Shown here in pieces: positions 28,000 through 40,764 of a DNA stretch of 51,089 nucleotides; position 1 is the first letter of the stretch; each line of letters starts with the position of its first letter. Made by a program: the position numbers and the translations under genes. Below the pieces are notes generated by a model. The model saw nothing but the letters and a program-made list of their open reading frames with translations. It was not told the origin of the DNA and made no database searches. The DNA comes from a virus: positions 1 through 51,089 of the IMG/VR virus record IMGVR_UViG_3300048597_000630. One strand, 5' to 3'.

Positions 28000-28215
28000 T
28001 CACAGCCTGAAGATCAGAGCGGCGCGGCGGCGGACGCCGTCGCGGAGCGCTTCCAGTTCCGCGATGCGCGCGTCGATCCGGTCGAGGTCGGCGGCGGCGT
28101 ATTTCAGCGTGCGGCCGCTCTTGGTGATCTCAGCGACGGCGCCGCCCGAGATCAGCGCCGTCCGCGCGGCGATCAGCTGTGCCAGCTCCGCCGCCTGGTC
28201 GCTCGTCAGGCTCAC
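28000..28215 (-). CDS. head-tail connector gpW-like
   Basis: 71 residues from a GTG that overlaps the terminase stop as GTGA. The sequence has two helices around a short beta-turn: LTSDQAAELAQLIAARTALIS, then SGRTLKYAAADLDRIDARIAELEAL. The SG-x-x-x-x-Y pattern in the turn is the signature of gpW-family proteins, which stabilise packaged DNA and allow neck attachment. The small size and position between the large terminase and portal match lambda W. Confidence 0.82.
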   Translation of the reverse strand: MSLTSDQAAELAQLIAARTALISGGAVAEITKSGRTLKYAAADLDRIDARIAELEALRDGVRRRAALIFRL

Positions 28216-30278
28216 GCCGCCCCTCCCTTGCCTGCAAACACGGCGGCGAAACGCGACGCCCCGCCCCGCGGCTTGTCGGCGCCGGCGACGGTCGCTTCGG
28301 GCTGGACCGGGGCGTTCCAGAGCTTCTCCAGCGGCGCGGCGATCTCGGCGGCAGGTTTCGCCTTCGCCGCGAATTCCTGCTCCCACCGGGCCGCGTCCCA
28401 GCTCCAGATGCCTTTCCAGTGCGCGAGCGCCCAGGCATAGACCGCGAGATCGAGCTGTTCGTTCGACGGATACACGCGGTCCCACACGCCGCGCTCGCCG
28501 TGCCGGTAGGTCTTCGGCAGGATCAGGCGTTCGGCCGTGATCTGCTTGGCGTCCTCGTCCGTCGTATCGATCTCGAGCAGCAGGGACCCGCGGCGGCGTT
28601 CGCCTTCGTCGGCGCCAGCAACAAAAGCGGCCAGCGCGCCATAGACCTGGCGCTTGCCGACATAGGTATCGATGAAGAGGATGTGGTGCCGGACCTTGCG
28701 CCCACCGGGCAGCATCACCTTGACCGGCCGCTCCATCGCTGGCTGGAACGCGGGTAGCTCGCGGCTCGCGCCCTTCAGCGATCGGACGTTTCCGGCGCCG
28801 GCGCGCGTGCCACGGGCCCGCGTGAAGCGATAGACCTGCGGCGAGACGCCGTCCTTGCCGCCGGAATCGACGCCGACCGCGTCGAAGCCCAGATCCCCGA
28901 CCCGGGCGCCGGTATAGGTCCGCGCGGTGATCGCCGCCGCTGCGGTCCATGCCTCGACGGTCAGGGGATCGTGCTCGATGACGCCGCGATCGAAGCGCGC
29001 CCAGGCATCCGGGCCGAAGGCGAAGGCCGCCCACTCCAGCCGGTCACCTTGCACGTCGAAGGTGAGCGCCAGCCAGCAGGCCCAGGCGGGCACTTCGCCG
29101 CGGCGCACGCCGATCGCCTTCGCCGATTTGACGATCAGCGCGTGATCGGGCGCCGCGGCCGCAGGATCCGAGGCGAGGCCGAGCTTTTGCTGCCGGAACG
29201 CCGCGCGCGAGGCGGCACTGCCCTCCGATTCGCGAAAATCGGCGGCGAGGCCCGCCCAGGTCTTCAGTGGCGAGTGGACCTGCCAGAAATAATAGCTGGG
29301 TTCACGCCCCTCGACGTCCCGCATCGCCCAGCGGGCGAGTTCATCGAACGGCACCGCCCGCGGCGGCTCCGGATTGTCGCTGCCGGTCGAGACGAAGGTC
29401 GGCAGATAGATGCCCGCGGCGACCATGGCCGGCTTGTGCCGCTCTTCGACCACCGCGCCGCAGCACGGTGCCTTGATCGTGGGGGCGGTCGTCGCCTCCC
29501 TCGGCACGACGAAGTCCGGCCACTCCCAGCGATGATAGAAATCGCAGTGCGGGCAAGGCATGTAGAACATGCACTGGTCGCCGGCGTGGAAATCGGCCGT
29601 CACCGGACAGGTGCCGAGCTCGCCGGGCGTCGATTCGTGCAGTTCCTTCGTGCCGAAGGCCTCCCAGCCGTCCATGCGCGTCCGGGCCTGGGGGATCGGT
29701 GCGCCGCGGCCACCGACATCGGCCAGGAAGTTCGGCGTTTCGGTCATCCAGAGCGCGCCATAGCTGGTCATCTGCAGCGCGTTCGGCGACGACGCCGGAT
29801 AGATCAGGATGGAACCGCCGGGAAACGCCTTGTCGGTCGTCGTCGAGCCGCGTTCGTCGCGCGTCGAGACGGGCAGCACCAGGCGCTTCAGCGCCGGCGT
29901 GGCGTCGATCACCGGCTGCAGCTTCTTGGCGTTGAACTCGCGCACCTTCGCAAGGCTCGGCATGGCGATGCCGACAGCGCGTGGCCGCTCGGCAATGATC
30001 CAGCTGACCCAGACCACGCCGATATTCGATTTTCCCGACTGCGCGGCCGCCATCAGCGTCACGCGCGAGCAGGTGTCGTCGAAGTGCAGCCGGTTCAGCG
30101 GCTCGCGGCAGTACTCGAACCCTTTCCAGGACAGGGGTCCGGGCACCGAGGTGGAGGCTTCGGCGGGAATGACGATCCGGCCTTCGGCCCATTGCGAAAG
30201 GCTCAGCGGTTCCGGCGGCGCAAAGGCGCTGCAGAACGCGGCGATCAGCAGCGCTGCGCCTTTCGTCACCGGCTGCAT
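28212..30278 (-). CDS. terL: terminase large subunit, gpA family
   Basis: A 688-residue packaging ATPase and nuclease. The ATPase has FDDTCSRVTLMAAAQSGKSN (about 67-86) with the Walker A-like AAQSGKS, and SYGALWMTETPNF near 173-185 in the Walker B region. The C-terminal nuclease half has FDAVGVDSGGKDG near 475-487 with acidic residues suitable for metal binding, and a zinc-like CPHCDFYH segment lies near 237-244. The lambda gpA family is characteristic of cos-type phages that cut unit-length genomes. It is followed by gpW-like and preceded by the Nu1-like gene. Confidence 0.92.
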   Translation of the reverse strand: MQPVTKGAALLIAAFCSAFAPPEPLSLSQWAEGRIVIPAEASTSVPGPLSWKGFEYCREPLNRLHFDDTCSRVTLMAAAQSGKSNIGVVWVSWIIAERPRAVGIAMPSLAKVREFNAKKLQPVIDATPALKRLVLPVSTRDERGSTTTDKAFPGGSILIYPASSPNALQMTSYGALWMTETPNFLADVGGRGAPIPQARTRMDGWEAFGTKELHESTPGELGTCPVTADFHAGDQCMFYMPCPHCDFYHRWEWPDFVVPREATTAPTIKAPCCGAVVEERHKPAMVAAGIYLPTFVSTGSDNPEPPRAVPFDELARWAMRDVEGREPSYYFWQVHSPLKTWAGLAADFRESEGSAASRAAFRQQKLGLASDPAAAAPDHALIVKSAKAIGVRRGEVPAWACWLALTFDVQGDRLEWAAFAFGPDAWARFDRGVIEHDPLTVEAWTAAAAITARTYTGARVGDLGFDAVGVDSGGKDGVSPQVYRFTRARGTRAGAGNVRSLKGASRELPAFQPAMERPVKVMLPGGRKVRHHILFIDTYVGKRQVYGALAAFVAGADEGERRRGSLLLEIDTTDEDAKQITAERLILPKTYRHGERGVWDRVYPSNEQLDLAVYAWALAHWKGIWSWDAARWEQEFAAKAKPAAEIAAPLEKLWNAPVQPEATVAGADKPRGGASRFAAVFAGKGGAA

Positions 30279-30283
30279 GGCTG

Positions 30284-30904
30284 CTACTCGGCCGCCGCCG
30301 CCGGCGCATCGGCCGGGGGCTGCATCAGTGCGCCGAGTTCGCGCACCACAAGCGCGCGCAGGAGGCCCTCCTCCTCGCGCATGACGATTTCCGCCTGGCG
30401 TTGATCGTCGGCGCCGCGGATGCGCTGGCAGATGCGGCGGCGGGATCCGTCAAAACCCTGCACTAAAACGGCACCGATGGCGGTGAAGGCCGCTAGGGCG
30501 TCTGCCTTGGCGACGACCCGACCCTCGGCCTCGTCGGCCCGCACACGCGCCAGGCGGGCGTCGGATTCTTCCTTCTCGACCCTGGCGTTGCGCGAACGGC
30601 CCTGCACCTCGTCGAAGGCGACGACCTTGGCCTCGGCCGGCTTCGCTGTTTGCGGCGGCTCATCCTGCTTGCGCGCCGCCAGATCCGCGCGGTGCGCCTT
30701 CAACGCCGCGAAGTCGACGAAGACCGGCTCGCCCTTGCCGCGCTTCTGCGTCGGGATCTCGGGATGCTTCTGCAGATACCGCACGAGGGCGGACCGGGAG
30801 ACGATATCGCCCTCAGCCGTCAGCCGTTCCGCCGCCTCGCCTTGGTTCACCCACACTTGTGCATCCGGGGTGTGCGCTCCCGGAGGCTGTGCACAGGTCG
30901 TCAC
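30284..30904 (-). CDS. terS: terminase small subunit, Nu1-like
   Basis: 206 residues. The N-terminal region (about 17-55, VWVNQGEAAERLTAEGD then ALVRYLQKHPEIP) is a winged helix-turn-helix of the Nu1/MerR-like type that binds the packaging site. A long basic-acidic helix follows (RNARVEKEESDARLARVRADEAEG), then a C-terminal domain rich in Arg/Glu that should bind the large subunit. The start is a GTG with no good ribosome site, so a slightly downstream start is possible. It is the first gene of the late operon. Confidence 0.78.
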   Translation of the reverse strand: MTTCAQPPGAHTPDAQVWVNQGEAAERLTAEGDIVSRSALVRYLQKHPEIPTQKRGKGEPVFVDFAALKAHRADLAARKQDEPPQTAKPAEAKVVAFDEVQGRSRNARVEKEESDARLARVRADEAEGRVVAKADALAAFTAIGAVLVQGFDGSRRRICQRIRGADDQRQAEIVMREEEGLLRALVVRELGALMQPPADAPAAAAE

Positions 30905-31076
30905 AACCGCTTACTCGCGAACCCGGGGGCCCAGATATGCCGTATACGGATCGACGGCCAGGAAGGACCCGTGAAGGGGGGGTACCCCCTGCCCGCCCCG
31001 ATTTCAGGGCATGACGACGGCGTCAAGGGCGACCCACCCACCCGCCTGACGCTCCGTTGAAGGGCATCGGCCTATG
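30905..31076. other. non-coding region before terminase, candidate cos
   Basis: No gene is seen. The region contains the GC-rich palindrome GGGGGTACCCCC near 30976-30989. In cos phages with a gpA/Nu1 terminase the cos site normally lies directly before the small subunit gene, and cohesive ends are often GC-rich and partly palindromic. The exact nicks cannot be read from sequence. Confidence 0.35.
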
Positions 31077-31101
31077 AAAAAGGCCGCCTCGCGGCGACCT
31101 T
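31077..31101 (-). terminator. Rho-independent terminator before the late genes
   Basis: The arms AAGGCCGCC (31080-31088) and GGCGACCTT (31093-31101) pair with one mismatch around the loop TCGC. On the minus strand the stem ends in five T. It lies between the DUF6456 gene and the terminase genes and would block leftward transcription from reaching the late operon unless it is overridden. Confidence 0.75.
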
Positions 31102-31129
31102 CGGACACGTCTTTGACATTGGCAGCGTT

Positions 31130-31156
31130 TTTATATCGGCGAAGTCGCGAAGTCAA
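31130..31156 (-). promoter_or_regulatory. candidate late promoter overlapping the end of the DUF6456 gene
   Basis: The minus strand reads TTGACT (31151-31156), then 15 bases, then TATAAA (31130-31135). Spacing is short by 1-2 bases. Transcription would start about 20 bases before the terminator hairpin, an arrangement like lambda pR' followed by tR'. Confidence 0.4.
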
Positions 31157-31764
31157 TCTGCGTGCTTCAACCCATAGTGCCGCGCGAGCGCATCGAGCCC
31201 GAGATAGAGCACCGCCTGGTTGCCCGCGCGCTTCGCCGGCAGCGCCGCATAGCGCAGGCCAGGACCGTCCGCGGCTTCCATCGTGACGCCGCCGATTAGC
31301 ACGCCGAACACGACGGGGCGGGTCGCGCCCAGGATGCGATCGGCGGCTTCCCATTCCGCCTTCGCATCCATGCGCGCTTCCGATGCATCGCCGCGTCCGC
31401 CGCCGTCGACGCCCCGCTCCCATTTCTGCGTCATGCTCGGGCCGCACGCGCCGAAGAGATAGTCGGCGATGTAGCGATCGGCGGCCTTCACATGCTCGAC
31501 ATCGAGCAGGTCATGACCGAGCAGCGTCATGATGATGGCCGGCACGCTGGGCCGCACGCGCGCCACGCCCTCGCCGCGCGCGCTCCAGATCGCCCAGCCC
31601 TTGCCGGTCTTGGCCGCGCGCTCCCGGGTCGCGAGCGTATCGGCCGCCACGCCACCCACCCGCACGCGCTCGGCCGCCGTTTCACGTGACAGCCGCTTCA
31701 CCCGCTGACGCGCGATGCGGTCCGCCTTCTCCTCCGGCGTCTCTACCCGTGCCCGACGCCCCAT
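31153..31764 (-). CDS. DUF6456-type protein, candidate late regulator
   Basis: 203 residues, soluble. The N-terminal 60 residues are basic and helical (EEKADRIARQRVKRLSRE). The C-terminal part has EHVKAADRYIADYL and ends LYLGLDALARHYGLKHAD, which I recognise as the DUF6456 signature of alphaproteobacterial proteins that are often linked to helix-turn-helix domains. It is the last early gene, immediately before the terminator and late operon, the place occupied by Q in lambda, so an antitermination or late-activation role is a reasonable guess. The ATG follows GAGAGGAT and AGAAGG. Confidence 0.6.
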   Translation of the reverse strand: MGRRARVETPEEKADRIARQRVKRLSRETAAERVRVGGVAADTLATRERAAKTGKGWAIWSARGEGVARVRPSVPAIIMTLLGHDLLDVEHVKAADRYIADYLFGACGPSMTQKWERGVDGGGRGDASEARMDAKAEWEAADRILGATRPVVFGVLIGGVTMEAADGPGLRYAALPAKRAGNQAVLYLGLDALARHYGLKHAD

Positions 31765-32117: not shown

Positions 32118-32146
32118 TTGACAGGCATAATTATCGTATTTACAAT
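32118..32146 (+). promoter_or_regulatory. strong sigma70-type promoter of brnT
   Basis: TTGACA (32118-32123), a 17-base spacer and TACAAT (32141-32146). The expected start lies at or next to the ATG of brnT at 32153, so the message would be leaderless. The palindrome ATAATTAT (32127-32134) in the spacer could be part of the operator for autorepression. Confidence 0.75.
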
Positions 32147-32152
32147 ATAGCT

Positions 32153-32455
32153 ATGCGGATCATTTACGACCCGAAAAAGCGCGACAAGACGCTTGCCGAC
32201 CGTGGGCTCGACTTCGAGCACGCAGCGGAGGTGTTTGCTGGCACCGTATTGAACGTGCCCGACATGCGCGTCGACTACGGCGAGGACCGCTATAATACCT
32301 ACGGCCTCCTGCATGGCCGGATGGTTGCGATCTCTTGGACGCAACGCGGCGAACTCTGCCGAATCATCAGTATGAGGAAGTGCAATGAACGGGAACAAGC
32401 CAGATACGCAGCGCAGCTGGCTCCTAGCGATCGACGAGCAGCTGATGGCGAGTAA
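32153..32455 (+). CDS. brnT: BrnT family toxin (RelE-fold ribonuclease)
   Basis: A 100-residue protein with the BrnT pattern: IIYDPKKRDKTLADRGLDFEHAAEVF at the start, the central RYNTYGLLHGRMVAISWTQRGELCRIISMRKCNEREQARY and a basic C-terminus. BrnT cleaves RNA and arrests growth, and is neutralised by BrnA. It is longer than typical (about 90 residues) because of a tail of some 15 residues. It lies on the plus strand inside an otherwise leftward early operon, with its own promoter, and its end overlaps the start of brnA by 71 bp. Confidence 0.88.
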   Translation: MRIIYDPKKRDKTLADRGLDFEHAAEVFAGTVLNVPDMRVDYGEDRYNTYGLLHGRMVAISWTQRGELCRIISMRKCNEREQARYAAQLAPSDRRAADGE

Positions 32456-33155
32456 GCCTTCTCTCGATGCGTTGAATGTGCTCGTGCTCGGCACGGCCGC
32501 TTCGCTGCCGTTTGCCCACAATCCGAACCATTTTGTTCTTGACGGCTTCTTTGGACAAGAGAAGCGTGTGTGGCGCCGAGCGACCTGCATGGTGGACGAG
32601 GGGACGCCGGGTATGTCGTATGCGTCTGGCGGCGACCCCGAGCCCAGGATTCTGGTCATGGCTGGTGGGGAGTCGGCCCAAGCTCCGCCAGAGACCAAGT
32701 CTCCCATTGAAGAAATACTGACCAAGATCTGGCAGCGAGTGGACGCGTTTTCGGATGTCGCCGAAGTCGTCAAAATTCTAGCGGAGCGTCTAACCGCGCT
32801 CGAGGCGAGCGCCCCCGCGCCACTCACCTTTAAGGGTCGAGGCAATTCAGTTGGACGCGCGCCAGCTCCGGCGTCCCATCCAAGAACGGATTTCGCCAAG
32901 GTGGACGCGCACGTCGTCCAGCCCGAGGAGTACGACGAAGTTCCGGAGCTAACGGATGACGCGGCGGCCGAAGCGGAAGTGTACCACGCCAATCGGCCCG
33001 CCAGGCGCGGCCGACCTCGAACAGGCAATGCCAAGGAGGCGATCAATATCCGCCTTTCGCAAGATGTGCTCACGGCGTTTCGGGAAACCGGTCCAGGTTG
33101 GCAGACGCGCATCGACGAAGCGCTGCGCCAGATGCTTGGTCTGGAGAGGCGATGA
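32385..33155 (+). CDS. brnA: BrnA family antitoxin with a large N-terminal insertion
   Basis: 256 residues. The start MNGNKPDTQ lies inside the NEREQ codons of brnT, as in ordinary brnTA pairs. The C-terminal 90 residues (167-256) are a recognisable BrnA: RTDFAKVDAHVVQPEEYDEVPELTDD, a GRPR basic segment and the ribbon-helix-helix IRLSQDVLTAFRETGPGWQTRIDEAL. About 150 residues are added between these parts (13-166), with a compact-looking domain (NVLVLGTAASLPF, GFFGQEKRVWRR) and a helical linker. Canonical BrnA has about 80-100 residues. The ribbon-helix-helix should bind and autorepress the operon. Confidence 0.75.
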   Translation: MNGNKPDTQRSWLLAIDEQLMASKPSLDALNVLVLGTAASLPFAHNPNHFVLDGFFGQEKRVWRRATCMVDEGTPGMSYASGGDPEPRILVMAGGESAQAPPETKSPIEEILTKIWQRVDAFSDVAEVVKILAERLTALEASAPAPLTFKGRGNSVGRAPAPASHPRTDFAKVDAHVVQPEEYDEVPELTDDAAAEAEVYHANRPARRGRPRTGNAKEAINIRLSQDVLTAFRETGPGWQTRIDEALRQMLGLERR

Positions 33156-33159
33156 ACTA

Positions 33160-34674
33160 TCATCCCGGTCCCTCGTACCCGTCATGCGGCGGCCGATCGT
33201 CGTCGCCATAACGCAGCTCGTTCGGGCGCAGCCGCGCCCCCTTGCGCGTCACTCGGCCCTTCGCGTCCTTGCCCGCGAACAGGACCTGCCGATCGGCGAG
33301 CGCGCGCCCGAACGCCGCCTGCTTGACCGGCTCGTGCCCGTTGTCCTTCGACCATGCCTCATAGTCGTGAAATAGCGTGCTTGAGAGCTCCCGGTGGCTC
33401 GGGTCGGCGATCACCCGGTCCATCCACCACTCGCCGAACGGGTTGGACGAGCGGCGGTAATCCTCGATCGCCGCCTTCATCTCGTCGGGCTCGTTCAGCC
33501 CCTCGTTCAGCCACCCCACGATGCCGGCGATGATCCAGTTGAGCACACCGCTCGCCTCCTGCTCGACGACATCGTCCTCGAACGTCTTCACCCGCTCTTC
33601 CTTGGGGATCTGGTTGGGCCAGAGGATCAGCTTCACGCGACGCCAGATGCCGTCGTCGTCGCCGCCGATGCGGATGCGCTTGTTCATCTCGATCCACAGC
33701 TTGAAGCTCGGCCGGTATTCGAAGAGGCCGAGGCCCAGATGCCGCGCGAGAATGGGCGTGCCGCCGGTGACGCTCTTGATGAGACCATCGTTCAGCACCG
33801 CATTGCGCGGCGGCTCGCCGGTCGAGCAGAGCCGCACATCGCCGCCCAGACGCGCGAGGTCGGGGCTGGCATCGGCGCCGCCCCGCATGCTCCCCTCCAG
33901 CCAGGTCTTGATGTCGCTCGTCGTGCCGTAGTCGCCGCCGACCCGGCGCAGGATGTTCATCGCGGTCGACTTGCCGTCGCCGCCCTTGCCCTGCAGCGCA
34001 ACGATGATTTGCTCGCGCGTCGAGCCGGTGAAGGTATAGCCCGCGGCATGCTGGAAGAACTGACGCACCCCATCCGAGGGCAGGCAGCGCACCAGATGCG
34101 ATTCCCATTTCGGCGCCGTCGCCTTGGGATCATAGGCGGCGGCCGCAATCCGCGTCATGCGCGCCTCGGGCGCATGCGGCTCCAGTTCGCAGCCCCATCC
34201 GTCCGGCCCGTTGCGCGTGAAGCGCAGGATCCCGTTCTGGACGTTGAGCGCGAAAGGATCGGGGTCGAGCTGCTCGCGCTTCACGTTGAGATAGGACTGC
34301 GCCTGCACCAGCATGGCGACAGTGCGGTTGCGATCGCCCGACCGCACCGACCAGCCAGCCAGCTTGTTGGCCCGCTCCTCGAGCATTTTCATATGTTCTT
34401 CGCCCTGGTCGCGTTGTTCCTCGATTAGGTCGCGGACGAATTTGGACTCCGCTGCGATGCCGCGCGCGGTTTCATGCGCCAGGCGGATCGCCAGCCGCTC
34501 GCCGTCGTCACTGCGCCAGGATTTCCCGTCCCAGCCGAACCACCCGACATCTTTCACGAAGATCAGCTTCCCCGCCGCCCGCGCCTCGAGGCGCATGGCG
34601 TTGCCGAGGTCGCCCATCTCCAGCCAGGCGAGCTCGCCCGGCGATGCGGCGGGGCGGAGCGTTTCGTCGCTCAT
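33160..34674 (-). CDS. phage/plasmid primase-helicase, P4/D5 type
   Basis: 504 residues from the ATG that overlaps the previous stop as ATGA. It is a superfamily III helicase of the P4-primase/D5 type: the Walker A motif is ALQGKGGDGKSTAMNILRR (near 230), followed by a KTWLEGSM-type segment and GEPPRNAVLNDGLIKSVTGG (sensor region). FEYRPSFKLWIEMNKRIRI is a conserved block of this group. The C-terminal winged-helix region contains LFHDYEAWSKDNGHEPV. It should unwind DNA at the phage origin together with the CHC2/Toprim primase two genes upstream. Confidence 0.88.
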   Translation of the reverse strand: MSDETLRPAASPGELAWLEMGDLGNAMRLEARAAGKLIFVKDVGWFGWDGKSWRSDDGERLAIRLAHETARGIAAESKFVRDLIEEQRDQGEEHMKMLEERANKLAGWSVRSGDRNRTVAMLVQAQSYLNVKREQLDPDPFALNVQNGILRFTRNGPDGWGCELEPHAPEARMTRIAAAAYDPKATAPKWESHLVRCLPSDGVRQFFQHAAGYTFTGSTREQIIVALQGKGGDGKSTAMNILRRVGGDYGTTSDIKTWLEGSMRGGADASPDLARLGGDVRLCSTGEPPRNAVLNDGLIKSVTGGTPILARHLGLGLFEYRPSFKLWIEMNKRIRIGGDDDGIWRRVKLILWPNQIPKEERVKTFEDDVVEQEASGVLNWIIAGIVGWLNEGLNEPDEMKAAIEDYRRSSNPFGEWWMDRVIADPSHRELSSTLFHDYEAWSKDNGHEPVKQAAFGRALADRQVLFAGKDAKGRVTRKGARLRPNELRYGDDDRPPHDGYEGPG

Positions 34675-35132
34675 GCCGAGGCCTCCGCCCGGCGCATCAC
34701 GCGCGCGATCGCCTGCGTCACGCGCAACGCCGCAGCATCGATATCGACCAGGCGATAGCCGACATTGACGACCGTCTCGATACGCTGCGCCCCGCCTTTC
34801 GTGGCGCGCCGCAGATGGCAGACCACCACCTTCACTGCCGCGCGATCGCGCCGGGCGCTCGCCGCCGTCGTTTCCATGACCGCGGCGAGGTCGCACGCGA
34901 GGACGGGATGGCCTTTGCGCTCGCACAGCACCCGCCACACCGCCGCCATCTGCGGCGACATCCGCACCGGCAGTTCGAGCCCGGGCACGATCACCTCGCC
35001 CGGCAACCGCGGGGGCCCATCCGCCCGCGCCAGCTCGCCAAGCTCGCGCGCGACGGCTTCCAGCTGGCGGCTGATACTTTCCACCTTCCGCGATAACTGC
35101 GCGGCGCGCACACTGTGGGCATAATCGGCCAC
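34671..35132 (-). CDS. winged-helix DNA-binding protein (OmpR-like fold)
   Basis: 153 residues. An N-terminal helical region (AQLSRKVESISRQLEAVARELGEL) looks like a coiled coil. A winged-helix domain follows: PQMAAVWRVLCERKGHPVLACDLAAV, a recognition helix with AAVKVVVCHLRRATKG and the wing RIETVVNVGYRLVD. The last phrase matches the C-terminal effector domain of OmpR/PhoB-type regulators. There is no receiver domain. It is coupled to both primase genes, so it may regulate the early operon or bind the origin. Confidence 0.65.
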   Translation of the reverse strand: MADYAHSVRAAQLSRKVESISRQLEAVARELGELARADGPPRLPGEVIVPGLELPVRMSPQMAAVWRVLCERKGHPVLACDLAAVMETTAASARRDRAAVKVVVCHLRRATKGGAQRIETVVNVGYRLVDIDAAALRVTQAIARVMRRAEASA

Positions 35133-36357: not shown

Positions 36358-36871
36358 CGCCCACCTCGCCGACAATGGCGTGGCGCGATCGCACGCCCAT
36401 GCTGTGCCTGGCCAGCTTGGCGCGCAGCCGCTGCAGATGGGTCTTCACCCAGCCCGCGCCGACCCTCAGATGGATCGTCAGCTCCTGCGTGCTCATGGAC
36501 CGCGTCAGCAGCGCGCGATAGAGCCGGTCCTCCGGCGCGGAGAGGCCGAGCGGATGGTAATCCGAAAAGCGCGCCTGATAGCCGCGCCGCGCCCGCGCGA
36601 GCGCGGTATTGCGGGCCCGCTGCGCCGCCGTGCGCCGGCCGCGTTTGGGCGGGGTGGCAACGTCCGGGGCGACGGGCGGGGCCTCCACCTTGGGTTCGGG
36701 CAACGTGGCCGGCGGCGGCGCCGTCACCGGCCGGACCGGCACGTGGGGGCTGGATGCGCCGCGCGCCAGTTCGAGGCGGCGCCGCTCCCAGGCCCGGCGC
36801 GCCTGCGCCTTGCCGGCGGCAATCGCGGCCCGCATGCGTGCGACATCGGTCGGCTCGATCTCGACGAACAT
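36347..36871 (-). CDS. hypothetical protein with C-terminal helix-turn-helix
   Basis: 174 residues from the ATG that shares its A with the GcrA-like stop. A helical basic N-terminus is followed by a Pro/Val-rich linker (about 45-80) and a C-terminal region with STQELTIHLRVGAGWVKTHLQRLRAKL, which resembles a helix-turn-helix. Two further upstream codons (MGSV) are in frame but not coupled. It is in the replication and regulation operon, between GcrA-like and primase genes. Function unknown; DNA binding is inferred. Confidence 0.55.
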   Translation of the reverse strand: MFVEIEPTDVARMRAAIAAGKAQARRAWERRRLELARGASSPHVPVRPVTAPPPATLPEPKVEAPPVAPDVATPPKRGRRTAAQRARNTALARARRGYQARFSDYHPLGLSAPEDRLYRALLTRSMSTQELTIHLRVGAGWVKTHLQRLRAKLARHSMGVRSRHAIVGEVGDAR

Positions 36872-37353
36872 CACAGATCCCACGCGCTGCGACGCGCCCG
36901 GCCGATATGCGTGCGCGGCTGATAGGGTTTGGACGGTGCGGTGCAGAGCGCGTCATGCGTCGGGCAATAGGAAGAGGGCCGCGATCCCCCGCCCGGCGTC
37001 GCCTTCAACAGCCGTGGCGCGCCGCACATCCCGGCCCCCGGCTCGCCGGGCGGGAACTGACAGCCGATCGCATCGCCGTGCACCGTGCGCCCCTCGACGA
37101 ACAACGGCGCGCGCAACGGCGCCACCGTCTGGGCTTTTCCGTCGCGGGGGACGCGGCGCTGCGGCGCCTTGGGCACGCGCGGCGCCTTCGGCACGGCCAC
37201 GCGCGCGCGGGCCCCCAGGCCGATACGATGCGCCTTGCTGATGCACCCATTGCGCGTCACGCCGCCGAGCGCCCGCGCGATCTGGCTGAACGACAGGCCC
37301 TCGGCAAAGAGCGTCTTCAGCCGGTCGATCCGATCGTCGGTCCATCCGCTCAT
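36871..37353 (-). CDS. gcrA: GcrA-family cell cycle regulator homologue
   Basis: 160 residues. The N-terminal helix-turn-helix reads WTDDRIDRLKTLFAEGLSFSQIARALGGVTRNGCISKAHRIGLGAR, nearly the textbook GcrA start. The C-terminal sigma-interacting part is kept: IGCQFPPGEPGAGMCG and SYCPTHDALC. In Caulobacter GcrA binds the housekeeping sigma70 and promoters methylated by CcrM at GANTC. Here it is directly downstream of an MT-A70 methyltransferase gene, with ATGA overlap. A phage copy could redirect host transcription or serve as the early-to-late switch. Confidence 0.88.
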   Translation of the reverse strand: MSGWTDDRIDRLKTLFAEGLSFSQIARALGGVTRNGCISKAHRIGLGARARVAVPKAPRVPKAPQRRVPRDGKAQTVAPLRAPLFVEGRTVHGDAIGCQFPPGEPGAGMCGAPRLLKATPGGGSRPSSYCPTHDALCTAPSKPYQPRTHIGRARRSAWDL

Positions 37354-37946
37354 GCGACGGCCCCGAACTTGGTGGATTCATTGCCCCAGACGGACCAACC
37401 GGGGCGCTCGGTCCGCGCAAACATTTCCAGACGCGGCACATCGCCGGTCAGGCGGACGATGCTGTCGGCGATGTCGTCGGGCTTGCGGCTGTGCTCGCGC
37501 AGCGGCGCGAAGACGACCTGCGCCTCACTTTGGGAAAGCCGGTCATAGCCCTTGCCGCGCGTCGCCAGCCAGCACTGTTCCGCGCCGCTGCGGGTGTGAT
37601 AGCCGAGCCCCAGGCGGACATCCTCGCCGGCATAGAAAAGGCGATCCTGCCCCTGCCGCTCCGCGACGCCTTTGATCTTGATCCACACATAGGCGACCGT
37701 CTTGAAGGTGAAGCCCCAGGCCTCGATGAGGCGCAGCGCGTCGGGCAGCATCGGCTGCACCACCCACATGAACAGCGCCGCATCGTCCGCCGCACACGCC
37801 GCCACCGGCAGCGCCGCCATGGCGGCCAGATCCATCACGTCATAATGCTGCGACGCGCCCTTGCCCTGCCCCCGATGCGACCAGGTCGCGAACGACCAGG
37901 CAGGGTCGGCATAGATGACGGAAAAGGGCCCGGGCGGGAGCATCAT
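37350..37946 (-). CDS. MT-A70 family adenine methyltransferase
   Basis: 198 residues from ATGATG at 37941-37946, coupled to the previous stop. The catalytic motif is FSVIYADPAWSF (Asp14-Pro-Ala-Trp17), a DPAW form of the usual DPPW. It continues with LFMWVVQPMLPDALRLIEAWGF and FKTVAYVWIK, the standard MT-A70 order, and ends with PRLEMFARTERPGWSVWGNE, which matches the C-terminal motif of phage members. It should methylate adenine in DNA at N6 (RNA possible). Shielding from restriction, or making the mark read by the GcrA-like protein, are both plausible. Confidence 0.85.
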   Translation of the reverse strand: MMLPPGPFSVIYADPAWSFATWSHRGQGKGASQHYDVMDLAAMAALPVAACAADDAALFMWVVQPMLPDALRLIEAWGFTFKTVAYVWIKIKGVAERQGQDRLFYAGEDVRLGLGYHTRSGAEQCWLATRGKGYDRLSQSEAQVVFAPLREHSRKPDDIADSIVRLTGDVPRLEMFARTERPGWSVWGNESTKFGAVA

Positions 37947-38164
37947 GCGCCGCTCCGCGCCGCGGCCGCCAATCGGATGCGGCCATACCCCTTGGGCGAC
38001 AGGCGGTAGAATTCGACGCGCCCCAAATCGCGCAGACCATTCCACGTCGCGCGCGTGAAGGGCGCCGTCTCGCCGGCGGCGAGGACGATGCCGTTCCGGT
38101 CCAGCGTGCCGTCGCCGTTGTGCTTGGCGAGCCAGTCGAGGGCCGCGCGTTGGGCCGCGGTCAT
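37943..38164 (-). CDS. 73-residue hypothetical protein, early operon
   Basis: Starts at the ATG overlapping the DnaA-like stop as ATGA and ends in the start of the MT-A70 gene. The sequence MTAAQRAALDWLAKHNGDGTLDRNGIVLAAGE looks like a small winged-helix or helix-turn-helix, with a second half TRATWNGLRDLGRVEFY. The two tight overlaps make it very likely to be a real gene. Function unknown. Confidence 0.6.
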   Translation of the reverse strand: MTAAQRAALDWLAKHNGDGTLDRNGIVLAAGETAPFTRATWNGLRDLGRVEFYRLSPKGYGRIRLAAAARSGA

Positions 38165-38571
38165 CGCGACGCCTCCGCCCCGTACAGCGCGACGATCTCG
38201 CCGCGCAGCGCATCGACGCTCAGGTAGTAGGCCCCACCCGCCTCCATCAGCGCGCGGCACCGCTTGATCCCGTGCGCGATCGCCGTGCGGTCCATGCCGG
38301 TATGCAGCGCGATCTGATAGCGCGTCAGGCCCGCCGCCTCCGCCGCGAGGAACAGCGCCGCGAAGCGCCAGGGCGCCACGGCCTTCGATTTGGGCACGCG
38401 CAGATCGGCGACCGGCAGCCGCGCCTCGCGCGCCGCCAGCTGGAAACACGTCTCTACGATGATCCCGGCGCGCAGCCGCGCCATGGCTTGGGCGCTGGCC
38501 TCGGCGGCGGCAGGGCGCGGAACCGGCGGCGTGCGCCGTTCGGCCCCGGCATAGGCGGCGAGCGCCTTCAT
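38161..38571 (-). CDS. DnaA domain IV-like DNA-binding protein
   Basis: 136 residues from the ATG at 38571 (ATGA overlap). The C-terminal half has VVDAL-like helices and LTRYQIALHTGMDRTAIAHGIKRCRALM, which parallels the signature of DnaA domain IV (GRDHTTVLHA-type helix) that binds DnaA boxes. There is no AAA+ ATPase domain. A stand-alone domain IV could guide the phage origin, block host DnaA or act as a transcription factor. Related small proteins occur near replication genes in other alphaproteobacterial phages. Confidence 0.65.
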   Translation of the reverse strand: MKALAAYAGAERRTPPVPRPAAAEASAQAMARLRAGIIVETCFQLAAREARLPVADLRVPKSKAVAPWRFAALFLAAEAAGLTRYQIALHTGMDRTAIAHGIKRCRALMEAGGAYYLSVDALRGEIVALYGAEASR

Positions 38572-40260: not shown

Positions 40261-40764
40261 TCAGCGTTTCCTCCTCGGGGGTTTGACGGGCGGCGCCGGC
40301 CGCAGGAAGTCGCCGGCAGCATCGAGCCGCACGCGCGCGGCGACCGCGGCGCGGATGAGATCGTCGAGTTCGCGGCGCATGACCGGCTTTTCGGAATCGT
40401 CGATTTGGCCGTCACCGAAGGCGCGGCAGAGTTCGCTGGAGAATTGCCCGTGCTCGCCGCAGACCTGTGCCGCCAGTTCGGCGAAGGCGGCATCGTCCAC
40501 CTCGCCGGGCACGAAGACGCCGCCCGCATCGGCGGCGAGCGCTTCGGCCGCGACGGTGCTGTGCGTCGCGACGGTCAGGCGGCGGACCTGGTCGAAGGTG
40601 ATCTGCGTGTCGATGTCGCGATCGCAGTAATCGTAGACCGCGCGCTCCTTGCGCTCGAGCACGAAGGCAGCGGGCTTCACCCCGCCGGCATCGTCGATGA
40701 AGCGTTGCACGACCTCCTTGGTCGTCGCGTAGCCGGCCGGGGCCTTGTAGGGCTTGAAGCTCAC
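40261..40764 (-). CDS. CII-like phage regulatory protein
   Basis: 167 residues from a GTG overlapping the preceding stop as GTGA. The N-terminus has TTKEVVQRFIDDAGGVKPAAFVLERKERAVYDYCD, and the middle has FAELAAQVCGEHGQFSSELCRAFGDGQIDDSEKPVMRRELDDLI. This layout, a DNA-binding front and a helical tail with the FGDGxI-type segment, resembles the phage regulatory CII/CP76 family. It is the third gene of the leftward operon after Cro-like. It could promote lysogeny by activating cI or int promoters. The C-terminus is Pro/Arg-rich. Confidence 0.55.
   Translation of the reverse strand: MSFKPYKAPAGYATTKEVVQRFIDDAGGVKPAAFVLERKERAVYDYCDRDIDTQITFDQVRRLTVATHSTVAAEALAADAGGVFVPGEVDDAAFAELAAQVCGEHGQFSSELCRAFGDGQIDDSEKPVMRRELDDLIRAAVAARVRLDAAGDFLRPAPPVKPPRRKR

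Follow-up and report, generated by a model that had tools for sequence, protein, structure and literature searches.

Late-gene control has been worked out for the lambdoid phages. For phages that carry a DUF6456 protein, the papers found make no such assignment. The locus described here raises the question of how such a phage turns on its late operon, and which part its DUF6456 protein plays. The stretch of DNA analysed, hereafter the window, is 51,089 nucleotides long and corresponds to IMG/VR virus record IMGVR_UViG_3300048597_000630, positions 1 to 51,089. The junction between its early and late operons is read on the minus strand.

The junction of the early and late operons

A preliminary description of this DNA had placed a TTGACT-15-TATAAA element at the end of the last early gene, followed by a terminator and then the late operon. 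Direct reading and the matches of the two terminase subunits bear this out. In the 3' direction from the DUF6456 gene, the promoter element is followed by the hairpin, a probable cos region, TerS and TerL:

31153 to 31764, minus strand: DUF6456 (GafZ-like) gene, 203 aa, last gene before the late operon (PF20057; counterpart in L002/L003; predicted sigma-4-like fold)
31130 to 31156, minus strand: promoter-like element TTGACT-15-TATAAA (direct reading; kept in L003; enriched across groups)
31139 to 31148, minus strand: inverted repeat GCGA-CT-TCGC, candidate binding site of the DUF6456 protein (direct reading; kept in L003; position like that of the Caulobacter GafZ element)
31077 to 31102, minus strand: intrinsic-terminator-like hairpin and five T (direct reading, scan and folding; core kept in L003)
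30957 to 30970, minus strand: GGGTCCTTCCTGGC, common to the window and the right end of phage R4C (direct reading and R4C end)
30284 to 30904, minus strand, start possibly at 30856: small terminase subunit TerS, first late gene (phrog_57, E 7e-9)
28212 to 30278, minus strand: large terminase subunit TerL of the lambda gpA type (PF05876 and PF20454)

The TGA stop codon with which the DUF6456 gene ends (31155-31153) lies inside the -35 hexamer TTGACT (31156-31151), and the -10-like TATAAA occupies 31135-31130. The spacer between them, GCGACTTCGC, measures 15 nt, which is short and counts against the promoter reading; an alternative -10, TAAAAA with a 17-nt spacer, is also possible. The hairpin core GGTCGCC-GCGA-GGCGGCC (31099-31082) forms a 7-bp stem with a GCGA loop, extended to 10 bp once the flanking A-T and G-T pairs are counted, and is followed by TTTTT (31081-31077). 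The leader folds with -21.7 kcal/mol (z -2.6). The -10 and the hairpin are separated by 27-30 nt (30 nt to the 7-bp stem), a longer gap than the 20 bases or so previously given.

When motifs are counted within the window only, the junction element could be chance. A simple scan of 12 kb yields 8 terminator-like sites where shuffles give 5.8; as the scan accepts only spacers of 16-18 nt, the junction promoter is not on its list. The inverted repeat GCGA-CT-TCGC, taken singly, is not significant (shuffle p 0.18). Two tandem copies of the 8-bp GACTTCGC were considered as a Q-like binding site and rejected, as the repeat is not kept in the close relative (7/8). The case that the predicted element is real, and beyond chance, comes from comparison with other phages, because it is conserved in the close relative and its layout recurs in unrelated phages.

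The sole close relative found is one virus contig, IMGVR 3300048597_000670 (loci L002/L003), in which the gene order through the early operon and the late start is the same as in the window and the DUF6456 gene, 89% identical, occupies the same place. The interval from -35 to -10 is identical at 25 of 27 positions in L003, where the -35 is the better TTGACA, and the terminator core at all 23. The corresponding values are 23/30 for the leader between promoter and terminator and 146/203 for the third codon positions of the DUF6456 gene. The putative promoter and terminator are conserved above their flanks in L003. The block upstream of TerS that contains CCGTATACGG is fully conserved there as well.

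GGGTCCTTCCTGGC lies between the hairpin and TerS. The same sequence is found at the right end of R4C, and the cohesive end (cos site) of that phage is located upstream of its TerS (PMC6836515); the region around GGGTCCTTCCTGGC in the window is thus probably cos, by analogy with R4C. GGGTCCTTCCTG, present in the window and at the R4C end, turns up again in locus L141, some 150 nt beyond the DUF6456 stop, hinting at a cos core shared by unrelated phages.

The MT-A70 methylase gene (37350-37946, minus strand) is 99% identical in L003, most of its neighbours being 64-96% identical. On the opposite strand, between the D5 primase and DUF6456 genes, the window holds a BrnT/BrnA toxin-antitoxin pair (32153-33155, plus strand) that is missing from L003; a promoter-like site, TTGACA-17-TACAAT (32118-32146), is located upstream of it.

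The DUF6456 protein and its early neighbours

The DUF6456 identity proposed for the last early protein holds: PF20057 scores 41.4-42.3 bits, above the curated cut-off of 26.3. At E<=1 the Pfam search gave only DUF6456 and one unrelated sub-threshold family, with no Q antiterminator family. No match of the protein was found in the phage and plasmid collections, and two scans of the genome collection gave no confirmed relative. Phages phi2LM21 and AmM-1, whose TerL is similar, have no DUF6456.

The domain connects the protein to the regulators of gene transfer agents. The BLAST matches of the regulator GafA bear a DUF6456 annotation (PMC9638019). In Caulobacter, GafA is split into the DnaA-like GafY and GafZ, the latter being homologous to the GafA C-terminus; GafZ is loaded at an inverted repeat between the -35 and the -10 of the gene transfer agent promoter, and its read-through of terminators (antitermination) was published in 2024 (PMC11150451). 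A GafA homologue beside a CtrA gene is reported for RDJLphi1 (PMC6363796). The DUF6456 model also matches RDJLphi1 gp38, RDJLphi2, R4C gene 039 and RcRios gene 59, as well as the Caulobacter control genome, where the matching gene is presumably gafZ. Taken together, the Pfam matches and the published homology make DUF6456 the counterpart of the C-terminal (GafZ) part of GafA. R4C gene 048, the last before TerS, was considered as another DUF6456 gene and discarded, Pfam giving nothing for it at E<=1.

Two proteins of the family were modelled with AlphaFold, the one from the window (pLDDT 71) and a second member (pLDDT 79), and both models consist almost entirely of helices. The top VIA-align matches are sigma region 4 domains, with Z 6.4-5.6 for the window protein and 8.1-6.9 for the second member. 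The Q21 antiterminator (6p1c) appears below them, at rank 10 for the window model (Z 4.6, 88 residues) and rank 28 for the second (Z 6.0, 90 residues). The Foldseek E-values of the fold matches are about 1 and the Z scores mostly under 8, and sequence profiles of DUF6456 against the PDB gave nothing significant. These modest matches hint at a sigma-factor-like helix-turn-helix (HTH) fold for the DUF6456 proteins. The published comment that models of GafZ are unlike any known antiterminator (PMC11150451) argues against a strong reading of the Q21 match.

Other putative regulators are encoded upstream of the DUF6456 gene:

34671 to 35132, minus strand: receiver-less OmpR/CtrA-type DNA-binding domain, early operon (PF00486, 26.4 bits)
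36871 to 37353, minus strand: GcrA-like protein, early operon, set aside as junction regulator (PF07750, 67 bits)
38161 to 38571, minus strand: DnaA domain IV-like protein, candidate GafY partner (Bac_DnaA_C, E 0.015, below the Pfam cut-off)

The DnaA-like protein is 98% identical in L003, and its weak PDB matches include the M. tuberculosis DnaA domain. Bac_DnaA_C exceeds the cut-off in 6 of the 44 DUF6456 records tested, the window match being weak. The protein is a possible counterpart of GafY. A receiver-less CtrA-type domain is likewise found beside GafA in RDJLphi1/2, and in RcRios gp59 DUF6456 is fused to such a domain. A Phage_CP76 (CII-like) regulatory protein (38 bits) is encoded at 40261-40764 on the minus strand. 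Over the whole window GANTC is strongly avoided (78 occurrences against 227 expected from dinucleotide shuffles), in a phage that carries genes for both GcrA and an MT-A70 methylase.

The junction in other DUF6456 phages

Two DNA patterns for the ALDxLAxHYG motif retrieved 19 and 63 stretches from IMG/VR. DUF6456 was detected at E<=0.001 in 12 of 18 and 33 of 50 searched records, with 11 and 27 over the curated cut-off, and one further new locus lay outside the 50 searched. The sample, including the window and L003, comprises 47 contigs in 19 groups at 50% identity, several contigs being near-identical; all DUF6456 contigs except the window and L003 came through ALDxLAxHYG-like patterns, so that the sample is biased. 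A third pattern, WPARSAK, used in IMG/VR as a second probe, gave 17 stretches, none with DUF6456. A large terminase gene is found within about 3 kb downstream of DUF6456 in 14 of the 19 groups, and these terminases belong to several unrelated families. L137 and L138 gave no large-terminase match with one ORF tested in each, and L071, L075 and L135 fell outside the scan.

The unit of the test was one representative per group, picked blind to the junction, and 185 other gene ends from the same loci served as controls; because the test was fixed after the junctions had been read by eye, the data had a part in shaping it. TTGAC within about 35 nt of the DUF6456 stop is present in 6 of 19 representatives against 5 of 185 other ends (Fisher p 1e-4), and in 46 of 1140 shuffles. 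The composite of TTGAC and a hairpin with a T-rich tail is present in 5/19 against 3/185 (p 2e-4; shuffles 13/1140). Leaving out the window group gives p = 0.0006 for TTGAC and p = 0.0013 for the composite. Thirteen representatives have no TTGAC within 45 nt of the stop, and 14 lack the composite. Reading by eye finds the element in other members of further groups (L128, L139-L141, L150 and L153), and finds none in L147/L148, L152/L155, L160, L136, L138, L143 and L075, in most of which coding sequence follows directly. A looser composite count of 8/19 groups was set aside for its spurious matches in L157/L159 and the called -35 of L145.

In a set of 21 elements selected by eye, the distance from the first base of the -35 to a strong hairpin is 30-66 nt, in most cases 41-57 nt; the -10 or the -35 is poor in several of them. 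The first gene with a ribosome-binding site begins only 15, 18, 44 and 48 nt past the hairpin in L137, L139, L076 and L134, respectively, which leaves little or no room for a separate promoter. The late genes of these four loci probably depend on read-through of the hairpin.

Inverted repeats in the spacers of TTGAC sites near the stop are longer than those at 320 TTGAC sites elsewhere (p 0.004-0.007, n=9 groups). Each group has a repeat sequence of its own, as expected of private loading sites. In L146 (group L146/L149/L151), the DUF6456 stop is closely followed by CGGACTAGTACGCTTTT and, after a long loop, by its complement, which together form a perfect inverted repeat of 17 bp.

The geometry of lambda Q, pR' and tR', to which the junction had been likened, is real and recurrent in unrelated phages. 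A layout common to so many unrelated viruses suggests a widespread late-gene switch.

Control of the late genes

A late switch with the DUF6456 protein as a GafZ-type antiterminator at the junction is the best explanation considered, and a fairly probable one. What the DNA itself shows is which predicted parts are present and in which order, that one close relative conserves them and that the layout recurs in unrelated phages. At the junction, a temperate phage of lambda style would switch on its late genes. RNA polymerase would start from the promoter whose -35 overlaps the DUF6456 stop codon, the start site being assumed, and unmodified polymerase would be halted by the hairpin within about 25-50 nt. 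If it behaves as Caulobacter GafZ does, the DUF6456 protein, of GafZ type and with a predicted sigma-region-4-like fold, would bind the promoter spacer and join the early elongation complex, allowing read-through of the hairpin. The modified polymerase would then transcribe the probable cos region and the operon of terminase and structural genes. The DnaA-like protein is assumed to be a possible helper in the manner of GafY.

That the DUF6456 protein could be an antiterminator was already proposed in the preliminary description, and the idea is well supported by its GafZ-type domain and the published antitermination by GafZ. The addition that it would be of a new type is not supported, since a gene transfer agent had already provided a published case of GafZ-type antitermination in 2024. 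At the junction, control would be a phage-borne variant of GafZ control with a lambda Q-like layout, and not a categorically new type.

The DUF6456 protein might instead be an initiation activator only, with the sigma-4-like domain aiding promoter use and the hairpin merely lowering the output. Such a role has been proposed for Rhodobacter GafA, which binds near the -10/-35 and to the omega subunit of RNA polymerase (PMC9638019); a sigma-4 fold fits a role at the -35, and so do the poor -10 or -35 sequences of several elements. On the other hand, many groups have a -35 close to consensus, at which little help should be needed. In several groups a hairpin stands right after the promoter, and in four a gene begins 15-48 nt past the hairpin, an arrangement that is hard to explain without control of read-through. 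Caulobacter GafZ does read through terminators (PMC11150451). Activation alone is considered unlikely.

A simpler possibility is an ordinary gene end, where the hairpin ends the early operon, the promoter is a chance match and the late promoter is located between 31076 and 30904 or elsewhere. Terminator-like sites are indeed common, the conserved CCGTATACGG block upstream of TerS could hold another promoter, and more than half of the group representatives are without the element. However, promoter and terminator are conserved above their flanks in L003, the layout is enriched relative to the 185 other gene ends, and a promoter before a terminator is the reverse of the order that separate operons need. 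This possibility is judged quite improbable.

The GcrA homologue, the other regulator that had been put forward for the junction, would act as late activator together with the phage MT-A70 methylase. Both genes belong to the early operon and are kept in L003. GcrA requires a methylated GANTC promoter site, and the junction has no GANTC between 30569 and 32360, within a window depleted of the motif; the gene is also 5 kb upstream of the junction. Owing to the missing GANTC site, GcrA is a very unlikely regulator of the junction.

The least credible proposal, that the hairpin is a put-like RNA antitermination signal or the element makes a small RNA, with DUF6456 not needed, agrees with the recurrence of a short leader with a stable hairpin, but put-like RNAs have two stems and no T tract whereas these hairpins are mostly of intrinsic-terminator form with T tails, and the link to the DUF6456 gene would be left unexplained.

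Beyond the window, there is about an even chance that the DUF6456 proteins as a whole are late antiterminators of phages, a large family that has gone unrecognised and whose members would do the work of Q. The gene of each protein would adjoin its own promoter, which would carry an inverted repeat as a private loading site and be followed at once by a terminator. The fold of the proteins would be sigma-4-like and may be shared with Q21, and the GafZ half of the gene transfer agent master regulator would be a captured phage Q-like protein. If true, many of the 19 divergent groups would have a predicted late antiterminator in what is so far a domain of unknown function, along with a compact cis element. 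Gene transfer agents, which carry host genes from one bacterium to another, would then have a control system of phage origin. In the openly licensed papers searched, none places DUF6456 or GafZ at a phage late junction; a 2025 paper by Korotaev on antitermination in the Bartonella gene transfer agent (BaGTA) is outside that set, and claims of priority are consequently weak.

Compared with the Q systems of lambda and phage 21, the window likewise has a predicted promoter-terminator pair at the head of the late operon, with the last early gene immediately before it and a probable cos region further on, and Q21 is among the fold matches of its protein. The protein differs in having no Pfam Q-family sequence match at E<=1. 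The leader to the hairpin is about 24 nt in the window, whereas in lambda it is about 200 nt, and the lysis genes are not first in the window. GcrA, a sigma-70 cofactor of the cell cycle, has a homologue in the early operon, but the junction is without GANTC.

The roseophages RDJLphi1/2 and R4C and the Rhodobacter phage RcRios likewise carry DUF6456, and in RDJLphi1/2 and RcRios receiver-less CtrA-type domains are nearby or fused. The domain is joined to an N-terminal HTH in RDJLphi1, RDJLphi2 and R4C, and to Trans_reg_C in RcRios. In the stretches seen of these phages DUF6456 does not adjoin the terminase genes, whereas the window gene does precede them.

The closest likeness in mechanism would be to the GafZ system of Caulobacter. 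GafZ and the GafA C-terminal part have the same Pfam domain and predicted sigma-4-like HTH as the window protein, and both systems present a promoter with a terminator downstream and terminase first in the operon; the inverted repeat between -35 and -10 is, in the window, a candidate counterpart of the GafZ element. The arrangement differs: gafYZ is away from its target in Caulobacter, whereas the window DUF6456 gene abuts it, and the Caulobacter terminator consists of 150-bp repeats after the first gene, whereas the window hairpin is directly behind the promoter. Owing to a poor -35, the Caulobacter promoter depends on GafY and IHF, whereas the window -35 is near consensus. GafY is the split-off partner of GafZ in Caulobacter, and in the window its DnaA-like candidate is encoded 6.4 kb away.
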